This document shows, piece by piece, positions 7,380-35,104 of a stretch of 35,270 bases of DNA (positions are counted from its first letter, which is position 1; the number at the start of each line of letters is the position of its first letter). Both the position numbers and the translations under genes were made by a program. The notes below the pieces were generated by a model. That model was given only the letters and a program-made list of their open reading frames with translations. It ran no database searches and was not told where the DNA came from. The stretch is taken from positions 1,126,987 through 1,162,256 of the forward strand of contig NZ_KB235958.1 in the NCBI RefSeq assembly GCF_000332355.1. The letters run 5' to 3'. This DNA is from Baaleninema simplex PCC 7105. Its GTDB lineage: Bacteria; Cyanobacteriota; Cyanobacteriia; Cyanobacteriales; Geitlerinemataceae.

Positions 7380-8810
7380 TCACCCCATCACCACATCTTC
7401 GGGGGATTTGGCAGAGAATCGATCGATCCCTTGACGTACCAGAGATTTCACGAAGGTCATGCGCTGGTTGTTGTTGAAGACGCTTTGCAGAATGCTGCCT
7501 AAACGCTCGCCATCGACCGACGTAGCCGGGTTTTCCACGTCCTGCTGCTCGAAGTATTCCACCAAGCTCAACCCGGCGATACGGGTTAAATAGGCGGCGC
7601 TGAGACCCTGGACGGTTCCCCCCGCGACGAAGGTGACGGGATTGTGTTTGAGGGCGGTACTGACGAGTTGCGTCGAAAGTTCTACCAGTCCCAGTTTCAC
7701 CATGAGGCCGCCCAAGGTTCCCGCTGCGGCTTGTGCTTGTTGCAAGGACAATCGCTGTTGGTAGAGATTGCCTAAATCGAGGACGAGTTGGGCGCTAATG
7801 GCACCGGTTGCCAATAAATCGAGGGCGGGGACGGGGTTAGCGAAGGCGGTTGCGGCGGCAACCCATTGATATTGAGTGATGATGGGTAAGGCGCGATCGC
7901 GACGAACGGCGTTGAGGCGAGTTTTTACGTCGTTTTTGAAACGTCGGGCTTGGCGGTAGACGGTTCCCCAGACGATGGGAGAACGGTTCGCCAATTGGCG
8001 ATCGAGAATTCGAGTTAAGTCTGAAATTTCGGGTTCGGGGGTTTCGCGGCGACTGACAACGGTGTTGTCGGTTTGGTGGCGTCGTACTTCGATCGCATCG
8101 GGGGCGGCGGCGACGGTGCAAACGCAGTCTTCATCAAGAAGGTTGGTGACGTTGCTGCGAACGCGAGCGAGTACGGCATCCCGTTCGGGGCGATCGTAGC
8201 GATCGCCTTTGTTCCACGCCAGGAGGACGGTTTGTCGCTGTTGGCGCAGGTGTTGTAAGACTTGACGTTCGCTGTCGGTGAGGTCGCCGTCGATGAGGAA
8301 TACGACTAAATCGGCGGTGAGGGCATCTTGGAGATTGTCGGCTTCGTCATGGCGAAAGAAGGCAGGAACTTCGTCGATTTCGACTCGATCGTTATTTTGC
8401 AGCCAGTGTTGGCGCAATACCTTCGCTAAAGCGGTTTTTCCGACGCTTTTACTGCCGACGATCGCAAGTTTGATGTCGGTGCGATCGAGGTTGTCGTGCA
8501 GTTGCGTCCAACGCTGTTGGAGATCGTCGCAAGGGGTTTCGCTTTCTTCGGATAAGCGATCGAGGAGAGTTTTCGCTTTCTCGAGAACTCGTTCGGCGTC
8601 CGATCGTGCGATCGTTTCTGGAACGATTTCCGGTAGCGGTTCGGGCGATCGCTGCTTGAACCACCACGCCCCAGCACCGACGGCGATGAGTCCCAAAACC
8701 CCCCACTCGCCAAACTCTCCAACGGAGCGATCGAGGCTTTCGAGCAACCACAACGCGAAGGAAAGACTGATTCCCCCGATTAGGATCGGTCGTTTCAACG
8801 TCCCTGCCAT
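7380..8810 (-). CDS. Membrane-anchored P-loop GTPase with DUF697 (YcjF-like) domain
   Basis: 476 residues. Two N-terminal hydrophobic segments (about 9-25 and 36-51) are followed by a helical linker. The small-GTPase-like domain is about 110-270, with Walker A VGSKSVGKTAL (GxxxxGKT), a Walker-B-like stretch DLVVFLIDGD, and a G4-like WNKGDRYD (NKGD instead of NKxD). The C-terminal about 300-460 is a DUF697-type helical domain (NPVPALDLLATGAISAQLVLDLGNLY; LVELSTQLVSTALKHNP), usually membrane associated. It belongs to the GTPase-DUF697 proteins common in cyanobacteria, whose cellular role is unsettled. The classical DxxG motif is hard to place, so nucleotide hydrolysis is not assured. It stands alone on the minus strand. 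Confidence 0.82.
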   Translation of the reverse strand: MAGTLKRPILIGGISLSFALWLLESLDRSVGEFGEWGVLGLIAVGAGAWWFKQRSPEPLPEIVPETIARSDAERVLEKAKTLLDRLSEESETPCDDLQQRWTQLHDNLDRTDIKLAIVGSKSVGKTALAKVLRQHWLQNNDRVEIDEVPAFFRHDEADNLQDALTADLVVFLIDGDLTDSERQVLQHLRQQRQTVLLAWNKGDRYDRPERDAVLARVRSNVTNLLDEDCVCTVAAAPDAIEVRRHQTDNTVVSRRETPEPEISDLTRILDRQLANRSPIVWGTVYRQARRFKNDVKTRLNAVRRDRALPIITQYQWVAAATAFANPVPALDLLATGAISAQLVLDLGNLYQQRLSLQQAQAAAGTLGGLMVKLGLVELSTQLVSTALKHNPVTFVAGGTVQGLSAAYLTRIAGLSLVEYFEQQDVENPATSVDGERLGSILQSVFNNNQRMTFVKSLVRQGIDRFSAKSPEDVVMG

Positions 8811-8980
8811 ACCTACACTACTTTTCGTTATAAATTTTTCTACGTCCCGAAGGCCGTTCGTATACCCCTATACTACCGCGTCCCTTCACGCTCTCGGGTC
8901 GTTAGGACAGCGATCGAACAGTTCCCAAGCCTCTCGCTTCGTATCGTGTTTCATTTCCTGTTTCATTGCTGAGCCAATCA

Positions 8981-9013
8981 AAAAGCCCCGCAGTTTGAAA
9001 CTACGAGGCTTTT
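8981..9013 (-). terminator. Strong terminator of the initiator tRNA gene
   Basis: On the minus strand AAAAGCCTCGTAGTTT is followed, after one base, by AAACTGCGGGGCTTTT. Allowing two G-U pairs, the arms match over about 15 bp around a 3-nt loop, ending in a T run. It starts 7 bp after the tRNA 3' end. The A/T flanks make it potentially bidirectional, so it also closes the region 3' of the GTPase promoter. Confidence 0.85.
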
Positions 9014-9019
9014 GAAAAA

Positions 9020-9335
9020 TGGCGGGAGGCGGATTTGAACCACCGACCTTCGGGTTATGCGTACCACTACAGTTTTCACTGCCTGAACTTTCGTCAGTTT
9101 GTAGTCTGGACTCTCCCTTCACCTTCAGCCGTACTGTTAGGGTGCTTCCCATCGAGTCTCTACACCTTCTCCGATTTCGGAGCTTGGCTCGGGATTACCA
9201 CGCTACAGGCTTCCCCGAGTTTGGGAAGTTGTCGCAAAGCAGTTTCCTGCCTTACAGCCCCGCTGACTCAACCGCTAAGCGTTTGATTAAGCCAGCCTTT
9301 GAGCCCGACGAGCTACCAGACTGCTCTATCCCGCG
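9020..9335 (-). tRNA. trnfM: Initiator tRNA-fMet(CAU), split by a group I intron
   Basis: Exon 1 is 9302-9335 and exon 2 is 9020-9059, both on the minus strand. Joined they give a 74-nt cloverleaf: acceptor CGCGGGA/TCCCGCC, D arm GAGC..GCTC, anticodon stem TCGGG/CCCGA with loop CTCATAA (anticodon CAT), and T arm GGTGG-TTCAAAT-CCGCC. Initiator hallmarks are present: a non-Watson-Crick 1:72 pair (C:C here; C:A is usual) and three consecutive G:C pairs in the anticodon stem. CCA is not encoded. The anticodon loop is interrupted between U33 and C34. The gene has its own promoter and terminator. A variant 1:72 base is the only oddity in the mature part. Confidence 0.92.
9060..9301 (-). ncRNA. Group I intron (IC3-like) in tRNA-fMet, no ORF
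   Basis: A 242-nt intervening sequence. With the group I rule (5' exon ends in U, intron ends in G), the cuts fall at GGGCT|CAAAGG and TACG|CATAAC. Internal-guide pairing of GGCU with exon GGCU, including the U-G wobble at the cut, gives P1. Conserved core strings typical of cyanobacterial and plastid tRNA introns are visible on the minus strand: GGTAATCCCGAGCCAAGC (P/Q, about 9183-9200), AGAGACTCGATGGG (R, about 9149-9162) and GAGAGTCCAGACTAC (S, about 9101-9115). There is no homing endonuclease frame. A group I intron in cyanobacterial tRNA-fMet is known from Synechocystis PCC 6803, so the class is not new. Self-splicing is inferred. Confidence 0.9.
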
Positions 9336-9346
9336 ACGCATTTTCC

Positions 9347-9376
9347 AGTATAAACTCAATAGCTCTGAAGTGACAA
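9347..9376 (-). promoter_or_regulatory. Sigma-70-type promoter of the initiator tRNA
   Basis: On the minus strand TTGTCA (9371-9376) is followed, 18 bp later, by TATACT (9347-9352). Transcription would start near 9340, about 5 nt before tRNA position 1. Both boxes differ from consensus by one base. Confidence 0.7.
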
Positions 9377-9455
9377 CCCCTTTTCGATATTTTTTTGAGT
9401 TTTTGAGAAATCGAGCGATCGGTTGGGTTTCCATCTTCACCCCATCCCTCCTTAG

Positions 9456-9474
9456 CCCCCCTTTCAAAGGGGGG
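9456..9474. repeat. G/C hairpin repeat
   Basis: CCCCCCTTT-C-AAAGGGGGG followed by TTGGGGGGATT, the same dispersed hairpin type as at 692-710 and 757-775. It lies in the gap between the tRNA promoter and the IS4-like element. Confidence 0.75.
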
Positions 9475-9617
9475 TTGGGGGGATTGAAGGATTTGTCGGG
9501 TTGTCAGCATTGGTGACAAGTTAAGAAAATAGGAGATTTGTCAAGGGGAGGTTGAAGAGAGGGTCAAAAGCCGTCAAACTGAGAACTGGCCAACGATTGA
9601 GCCGTAGGGAAAACACC

Positions 9618-11146
9618 ATGAGCCGGAAGCGAAAACCGAATCGAGACCATGCCAAGAGGATGCAACGTCCCCTGGCCGAAGATGCCGAGATTGTCCGACA
9701 ATTAGAAGAATTAGTCACCCCGGCCATCACGTCTCAAGAAAATTACTATCGACAGTTGGGACTAAGAGATCGAATTCTGACCCTACCGTTGATGGTGGCA
9801 TCGGTATTAACTTTGCTGTGGCGAGATGTAGCCGGAGTCAGAGAACTGACAAGAATGTTGGCGCGAGAAGGATATTTATGGTGTAGTCCGACTCAAGTCA
9901 GCCAACAAGCAATGTCCCAAAGATTTCTCACTTTTCCGGCCCAATTATTTGAGGGCGTGTTCAAAGAATTATTACCCAAGTTTCGGGAAAGGTGGCACAG
10001 TCGAAATCGTCGTCCCTTACCGGAAAGCATTCAGTTCACACTCTCGAAATTTCAGAACATATGGATTGCGGATAGTTCGACATTAGAAGCCTTGTTTCAG
10101 AAACTCAAAAGTTTGGAAACGGCTCCCAAAGGACAATTAGCCGGAAAAATGGGAGTCGTTATCGATCTCGTGACCCGACTGCCTCAAGAGATTTGGTTTC
10201 AAGAGAATCCTCGGTCATCGGATACGAATCTAGAGGGTAGAATCTTGAATTTAGTGGAGCCGGCAACCCTGTTATTGCTAGACCGAGGGTTTTACCATTT
10301 TCAGTTTTGGTTAGACTTAAGGGAGCAGGGAGTTGAGTTCATCACGCGGTTGAAGAAAGGAGCCGCCATTCAAGACGTTCGGCGAAGCTCAGTCGAGCCG
10401 TTGAGAAGATTTTCACCGAGAGTTATGGGATTCGCGACCGTCAAATTCGATTGGGTTCGGGAACGAAGAAAACTCCTTATGTCACCTTGCGTCTCATTGA
10501 AGTGCGTTCGGGAAAAGTCTGGTATTCCTATCTGACTTCAGTGTTAGATCCTCATGTATTGCCTCCCTATGTCGTTGCCGATCTATATCGAAAACGGTGG
10601 CGAATCGAAGAAGTGTTTAATACCGTGAAACGGTTGCTCGGCTTGAGTTATTTATGGACGGGTTCTCTGAATGGAGTTCGGTTGCAGATCTGGGGAACTT
10701 GGCTGTTTTATGGAGTCTTAGTCGATTTAGGGGATGCGGTTGCTGATGAATTATCTTTGCCGATTGATTCCATTTCTTTAGGGCTCTTCGGAATTTAGGG
10801 TGACAGAAAAACTAACTTCACGAGATTTCAAGGGTTTTGGCTCTCGAATTTTCGATTTTTTGTATCATTTTATACGTTTTTAACCACAAACTCCGAAGAC
10901 CCTTCTTTAGAGATGATTTATCAGGGTCTCTACCATTTTTCGGTGGCTCATCAAAAAGGGCTAGCTTCCGATCCCGTTCAATACTTTGCGGCTCCAGAAA
11001 ACAAAGATTTAGGCATTGTCAAGCAGAAACGAAAATCCCAAGTCAGACTCATTGTCTCTCCTTTCCCGGCCCGCCAACGTTCTCCCGAAGAGTTTTTCTT
11101 TCAGCCTGACTCTCAAACCCCCTTGACAACTGACTTACAGCCTTAA
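9618..11146 (+). pseudogene. IS4-family transposase gene, broken by frameshift and MITE insertion
   Basis: The start MSRKRKPNRDHAKR at 9618 is natural. Catalytic residues are all present in pieces: first Asp in WIADSSTLE, second Asp in LLLDRGFYHFQFW, and Glu in the Y(2)R(3)E(6)K-like YRKRWRIEEVFNTVKRLLGL. The reading frame changes by -1 near 10378-10390: frame one runs on to a stop at 10535, while the homologous frame continues as KLSRAVEKIFTESYGIRD and onward. It is then interrupted at SISL by the MITE (10782-10902) and resumes as EMIYQGLYHFSVAHQK to LTTDLQP at 11146. Deleting the MITE and one 8-bp duplicate restores SISLEMIYQG in frame. The protein is therefore not made intact. Confidence 0.9.
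10774..10910. mobile_element. 121-bp ISL3-like MITE with 8-bp target duplication, copy 1
   Basis: The element is 10782-10902. Its ends are GGCTCTTCGGAATTT and, inverted, GGGTCTTCGGAGTTT (13 of 15 match). It is flanked by direct 8-bp repeats TTCTTTAG at 10774-10781 and 10903-10910. Ends that begin GGCTCTT with 8-bp duplications are the hallmark of the ISL3 family, so this is probably a non-autonomous ISL3 derivative. It contains no ORF. It sits inside the IS4-like transposase gene. The second copy at 34984-35104 has the same length and is about 93% identical by eye. Confidence 0.9.
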
Positions 11147-11224
11147 CTTGTCACTAATGGATAGTCACGGGATTTCACCAACTACTCTAACTTAGCGGTT
11201 TGTCGATCGCGATCGCCTTCTGAA

Positions 11225-34983: not shown

Positions 34984-35104
34984 GGCTCTTCGGAGTTTAG
35001 GGTGACAGAAAAACTAACTTCACGAGATTTCAAGGGTTTTGGCTCTCGAATTTTCAATTTTTTGTATTATGGTATACATTTATAACCACAAACTCCGAAG
35101 ACCC
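34984..35104. mobile_element. 121-bp ISL3-like MITE, copy 2, without target duplication
   Basis: Same length and ends as copy 1 (GGCTCTTCGGAGTTT and inverted GGGTCTTCGGAGTTT, 14 of 15 matching). Differences from copy 1 cluster in the AT-rich segment at about 35060-35085. The left flank (CAGACTCA) and right flank (CCCCTGTT) do not match, so one side has been lost or exchanged. Left of it is a DUF4277 transposase, right of it an IS5-like one on the other strand. Confidence 0.88.

Follow-up and report, generated by a model that had tools for sequence, protein, structure and literature searches.

An endonuclease-less group I intron in the doubled initiator tRNA gene of Baaleninema simplex PCC 7105

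A 35,270-nucleotide stretch of the genome of the cyanobacterium Baaleninema simplex PCC 7105 (contig NZ_KB235958.1, forward-strand positions 1,126,987 to 1,162,256; hereafter the window) contains a tRNA-fMet gene that is cut in two within the anticodon loop. Do the two halves constitute a working gene, what kind of element separates them, and can the cell start protein synthesis without its removal? The locus is very probably a genuine initiator tRNA gene that is interrupted between U33 and C34 by a group I intron lacking an endonuclease; initiation should depend on the splicing of this intron, which is most likely a stranded, immobile member of its family.

tRNA introns of this kind are assigned to subgroup IC3. 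ORF-less introns at the U33/C34 site were reportedly described in Dermocarpa and Scytonema by Biniszkiewicz (1994), and Paquin (1997) is also said to have dealt with cyanobacterial tRNA-fMet introns. Such introns are already in print (PMC1995217, PMC3073962, PMC5733544, PMC3610870, and PMC8450103). The intron of Synechocystis PCC 6803 measures 655 nt and contains a 150-aa ORF encoding I-Ssp6803I (PMC1995217, PMC3073962), and tRNA-fMet introns, located in the same gene as that of the window, are present in Dermocarpa, Scytonema, and Gloeobacter (PMC5733544, PMC8450103). One sentence of PMC5733544 is readable as ascribing an ORF to all three genera, Dermocarpa and Scytonema among them.

The interrupted gene and its intron

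On the minus strand of the window, 9335 to 9020 comprise two exons, the first of 34 nt and the second of 40 nt, separated by a 242-nt insert (Table 1). The initial annotation had proposed a 74-nt initiator tRNA assembled from 9302-9335 and 9020-9059, and ARAGORN recognizes the joined exons as a 74-nt tRNA-Met(cat) with no base to spare; the insert lies between U33 and C34 at exactly the bases proposed. The cloverleaf has the CAU anticodon, three G:C pairs (GGG/CCC) in the anticodon stem, and no Watson-Crick pair at 1:72, as bacterial initiator tRNAs do. C1 stands opposite C72, which had been regarded as distinctive, a view that is rejected here: position 1:72 is C:C in 81 of 92 intronless cyanobacterial tRNA-fMet genes and thus ordinary in cyanobacteria. 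The expectation that automated callers would miss the gene was borne out, as ARAGORN finds no tRNA on the raw window and, with introns of up to 1000 nt permitted, mis-calls the gene as tRNA-Leu(caa). The initiator tRNA gene of the window is invisible to a standard caller, and every protein that the cell makes should require a ribozyme.

Table 1. Features of the tRNA-fMet locus and its neighbourhood (window coordinates)
Feature	Position	Strand	Basis or remark
DUF697 protein gene, downstream neighbour of the window copy	7380..8810	-	orthologue behind tRNA-fMet in G129
Terminator-type hairpin, common to the second copy	8978..9015	-	-21.3 kcal/mol, z -4.8
tRNA-fMet 3' exon, from C34, CCA not encoded	9020..9059	-	sequence and ARAGORN
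Group I intron, 242 nt, no ORF, final G	9060..9301	-	Rfam match, covariation
P7 3' strand GAGUC	9109..9113	-	covariation
P7 5' strand GACUC	9154..9158	-	covariation
Guide GGGC, pairing with G31-C32-U33 and the first intron base	9257..9260	-	pairing by eye; invariant in 50 relatives
tRNA-fMet 5' exon, bases 1-34, ending at U33	9302..9335	-	sequence and ARAGORN
Promoter-like site of the tRNA gene, TTGTCA-18-TATACT	9347..9376	-	0.2 such sites in shuffles
Insertion sequence, DDE transposase, upstream of the tRNA gene	9508..11159	+	ends drawn from inverted repeat

The promoter and the terminator had been ascribed to the insert as its own. Both are present; they belong to the whole tRNA gene and not to the intron. 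A simple terminator scan of the window does not list the hairpin at 9015-8978. Upstream of the promoter lies a G-rich inverted repeat (9437-9491), seen by eye and accompanied by chance-level microRNA matches.

The insert bears two marks of a group I intron: the 5' exon ends in U and the intron in G. The precursor folds better than 100 of 100 shuffles (z -3.1). The insert contains no ORF of 60 aa or more, in agreement with the initial annotation. The covariance search suggested there for 9060-9301 gives a whole-model match of Rfam Intron_gpI (RF00028) to 9279-9082 with 45.3 bits and an E-value of 2.6e-10, which falls below the gathering score of the model (50 bits), so that a search of the window at that score lists nothing; the second copy of the gene, described below, also remains under it with 49.7 bits. 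The 50-bit score is a cut-off of the model rather than a trait of the class, and the gap is filled by covariation. Weaker group I-like matches in the same genome are located at C4:2514645-2515611 (L068 and L069) and C5:230704-230841 (L070), with 36.2, 22.3, and 16.6 bits; none of the three is listed at the gathering score.

Covariation was assessed in an alignment of 50 same-site introns without an endonuclease ORF, picked without a fixed rule from 75 short representatives. A structure of 54 pairs, including P7 as a pseudoknot, leaves 96.8% of the cells paired, and both sides have changed in 38 pairs as compared with 24.8 in shuffles; when the partners are slid, pairing drops to 30-43%. P7 is paired in all 50 relatives, with its last pair occurring as GC, UA, CG, and AU (all four Watson-Crick types) and once as GU. 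Unaided, RNAalifold prefers to pair the guide with the 3' strand of P7 in a nested helix, which competes with P7; this solution was set aside because the nested helix shows hardly any variation, in contrast to the covarying P7. The group I P3-P8 core with its P7 pseudoknot, which the initial annotation had read from core strings, is therefore confirmed in the window intron. The insertion site, the guide, and the final G are the same in the relatives. By its U33/C34 site and homologous core, the intron is assignable to the tRNA-fMet intron family of the Synechocystis type.

A single transcript would start at the promoter, cover both exons, and end at the terminator. Within it, the intron would fold into the core shown by covariation, and the GGGC guide, as read from the sequence, would pair with the last bases of the 5' exon. 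Following the established mechanism of group I introns, guanosine would then attack after U33, and the freed exon end would attack after the final G of the intron, releasing the 74-nt tRNA.

Distribution of the intron and placement of its endonuclease

Within the class, the intron occurs in at least 23 genomes, that of the window included (291 searched, 286 with any match), a search that may overlook divergent introns; in the family, the intron occurs in two of 14 genomes, G000 (the window genome) and G291. The pattern of intron end plus 3' exon was found at no fewer than 114 loci in genome contigs under 16 phylum labels. Among the matches listed, 109 of the 114 are preceded by the tRNA-fMet 5' exon, and the remaining five are cut off by the end of the sequence retrieved. 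The labels of these listed matches, taken from record titles (many of the records are MAGs), comprise Cyanobacteriota (51), Bacteroidota (22), Omnitrophota (10), Rhodothermota (6), Nitrospirota (4), and 11 further ones with one to three loci each; one locus has no label. The Bacteroidota loci share an exon type of their own, as judged by eye, and include the isolates Neolewinella lacunae and Lewinella sp. JB7; for these reasons contamination is in general disfavoured. The label Acidobacteriota of locus L169 was not accepted: the exon is Bacteroidota-like, the intron sits with a Bacteroidota intron, and the contig is probably mis-binned. In the literature searched, mostly open-access main texts available in part (including PMC4853749, PMC5143459, PMC6125680, PMC11835236, and PMC3984707), no mention of tRNA-fMet introns outside cyanobacteria was found.

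A single clade of cyanobacterial introns is not rejected (p-AU 0.103), and no claim is made that they entered cyanobacteria several times. The tree parts the intron of G000 from that of G291, their union in one clade being likewise not rejected (p-AU 0.211). Bacteroidota and Rhodothermota introns as one clade are rejected (p-AU 9.4e-5), under labels that come from record titles, many of them of MAGs. The junction pattern was found in no viral contigs, and among phage and plasmid records none spans 80% of the gene, the matches there being to the core or to one exon. Two plasmids contain group I intron-like cores. One lies in the Escherichia coli plasmid NZ_CP023816.1 (L057:1410-1601, plus strand; RF00028, 36.6 bits, E 1e-6), flanked by a small hypothetical gene and by an ATPase gene adjoining aac(3)-IId, and similar core matches occur in most of 1272 plasmid records. 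The other is located between annotated genes of the Bradyrhizobium conjugative plasmid NZ_CP094524.1 (L058:1452-1636, plus strand; 45 bits, E 3e-9).

The relatives of the window intron, in which most of the interest lies, differ in where an endonuclease gene is found. Of 134 introns analysed, repeats and the strain's own copies included, 28 measure at least 450 nt and 26 have an ORF of at least 100 aa, 25 of these ORFs constituting one family. The product of the ORF in the f4 introns matches PDB ID 2OST (I-Ssp6803I) with an E-value of 5.8e-90. A profile of the inner ORFs also detects the same gene outside the intron. After removal of eight repeats, 126 distinct loci remain (the two own copies included), with the endonuclease inside the intron in 30 (26 genes and 4 fragments), in the flank in 37 (33 genes and 4 fragments), and absent in 59 (55, plus 4 with a flank shorter than 700 nt). 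Its absence, regarded by the initial annotation as a peculiarity of the window intron, is thus common; one Gloeobacterales tRNA-fMet intron, for instance, has 265 nt and no endonuclease. Inner and flanking genes occur together in none of the 126 loci (Fisher p 6e-6, a figure that ignores relatedness).

Most of these genes are one unbroken stretch (24 of 26 inside, 30 of 33 in the flank). All 37 flank endonucleases lie downstream and on the strand of the tRNA, 49-139 nt away in 32 loci and 775-1189 nt in five; 31 of the loci are cyanobacterial, four belong to Bacteroidota and two to Omnitrophota. A terminator-like hairpin is discernible by eye between the tRNA and the flank gene in 6 of 6 loci. 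Beside intronless cyanobacterial tRNA-fMet genes, the endonuclease was found in none of 78 control loci (75 with at least 1000 nt downstream), a control that is not lineage-matched, nor was it found at intronless loci collected earlier. In a rapidly built tree of 54 proteins, the position of the gene requires three changes, at least two of which are forced by well supported branches. A search for relatives of the I-Ssp6803I-type endonuclease in viral contigs or plasmids found none.

In phages, free-standing endonucleases work together with ORF-less introns in collaborative homing (PMC3984707), as in the case of psbA/F-CphI (PMC3984707, PMC6083498). The flank arrangement resembles this, with an ORF-less intron and a free-standing endonuclease near the target gene in 37 of 126 relatives, though not in the window; it differs in residing on a bacterial chromosome, in a tRNA gene, and with an I-Ssp6803I-type enzyme. 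In the same mostly open-access literature, no mention of this arrangement for tRNA-fMet introns was found either; neither negative is proof of novelty. On balance, it seems probable that the intron of the initiator tRNA is a mobile element that has reached many bacterial phyla in two interchangeable builds. The endonuclease would be encoded either within the intron, in its 5' loop, or immediately downstream of the tRNA, never at both places, and its position would have switched at least twice; the downstream build would be the chromosomal equivalent of the phage pairs that engage in collaborative homing. The window genome would represent a stranded end state, doubled together with the gene, on which all translation depends. 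The loci of the family (endonuclease inside, next door, as remnants, or absent) offer natural stages for how endonuclease genes enter introns. The 952-nt tRNA-fMet intron of Desulfatirhabdium (L135) contains a 225-aa ORF outside the I-Ssp6803I family that appears LAGLIDADG-like by eye, and another kind of endonuclease may have entered the same intron there.

Doubling and stranding in Baaleninema simplex

The genome assembly (6.15 Mb, 8 contigs, 97.9% complete) contains the interrupted gene twice. A search for a second tRNA-fMet, as the initial annotation had advised, yields one at C4:523262-523577, and it is interrupted too. The two copies have three differences in 316 nt, all within the intron, while the exons are identical; similarity extends over 368 bp (98% identical), beginning roughly where the -10 box ends and reaching as far as the terminator, and promoters and flanks differ. 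No contiguous tRNA-fMet was found in the genome, the next match being tRNA-Phe. Because both copies are interrupted and no intronless one was found, translation initiation in the strain should depend on splicing of the intron; this is the dependence foreseen for a sole initiator tRNA, carried by two copies instead of one. Among 24 intron genomes searched, four half matches occur in the window genome alone, and two interrupted copies set it apart from Dermocarpa, Scytonema, and Gloeobacter. The element belongs securely to a known kind; what is unusual is that it is doubled and that no intronless copy was found.

Initiator tRNAs could not be annotated in 15 of 2,323 genomes, for which missing annotation was suspected (PMC5143459), and in 36 genomes group I introns are responsible for missing fMet or Ile2 calls (PMC8450103). 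Introns of this kind may likewise explain part of the former 15.

The window intron shares with that of Synechocystis PCC 6803 the gene, the anticodon-loop site, and the family, and differs from it in its length of 242 nt, the lack of an ORF, and the lack of any such endonuclease found in the genome. In a tree of 105 intron cores, it forms one set with L015, L025, and L029 (97/84), of which L025 has a flank endonuclease and the other two have none; one step out, a set of ten rows (98/84) includes endonuclease-bearing introns, namely that of Snowella and the f4 introns (654-655 nt, with the Synechocystis-type ORF). A one-protein query detects no endonuclease in the window genome or in G291, while G218 and G129 give matches. 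Neither the window nor 19 kb around the second copy contains a remnant at E<=1. A homing intron would have an endonuclease gene in or beside it, and none was found there in this genome. Between the tRNA and the DUF697 gene, the window has 209 bases where G129 has an endonuclease gene. With no endonuclease found in the intron, near the tRNA, or elsewhere in the genome, the intron is most likely stranded and now immobile. The simplest reading is that the endonuclease was lost in this line, which may alternatively never have had one.

Two alternatives concern what the intron still does. It might be mobile in trans through an endonuclease gene that was missed or is present intermittently, as in collaborative homing, since the enzyme, whole or as fragments, lies downstream of the tRNA in 37 of 126 relatives and L025 is among the closest introns; given that the query matching G218 and G129 found nothing in the window genome, and that even remnants were lacking around both copies, this is very unlikely. 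An intact intronless initiator tRNA might also sit in a gap of the incomplete assembly and leave the interrupted copies dispensable or dead. That reading is the least probable of those weighed here: the exons have remained identical and the introns nearly so, and 23 of 24 intron-bearing genomes likewise have no contiguous tRNA-fMet at E<=1e-5, the exception being G114, with 8% contamination. An immobile intron on which initiation should depend is thus retained as the preferred reading.

The origin of the second copy, as distinct from that of the intron, raises a further alternative. RNA-mediated copying of an unspliced transcript, giving rise to the window copy, would account for a similar block whose limits fall approximately at transcription start and terminator, between unlike promoters and flanks; it is improbable, for both loci preserve older surroundings. 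Upstream of copy 2 lies an asparaginase II gene, as in 16 related loci (60-84% identity), with which copy 2 also shares a wider gene order, and the window copy retains its DUF697 neighbour, which is 47% identical to the DUF697 gene of G129 as compared with 30% for the best of three other own paralogues (the genome has six DUF697 matches). Elsewhere in the genome, the insertion sequence of the window has a single further long match, a partial copy starting about 70 bp behind copy 2, so the only two long copies of this element adjoin the two tRNA genes. This count comes from one search in which a small repeat crowded the candidates and the best 40 of 146 were scored, and from a further one that scored all 24. 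A tandem arrangement is, moreover, known in G292. A tandem pair parted by a rearrangement linked to the insertion sequence, and kept alike by gene conversion, fits best.

In G292, a genome of the same family (locus L060), two intronless tRNA-fMet genes stand in tandem, 319 bp apart, behind an asparaginase gene, possibly a picture of the state before the copies of the window genome parted. A repeat of about 121 bp is inserted in the insertion sequence of the window (10782-10902) and recurs near the window end (34984-35104); among the best 40 of 146 candidates, it has about 40 matches in the genome at 89-100% identity.
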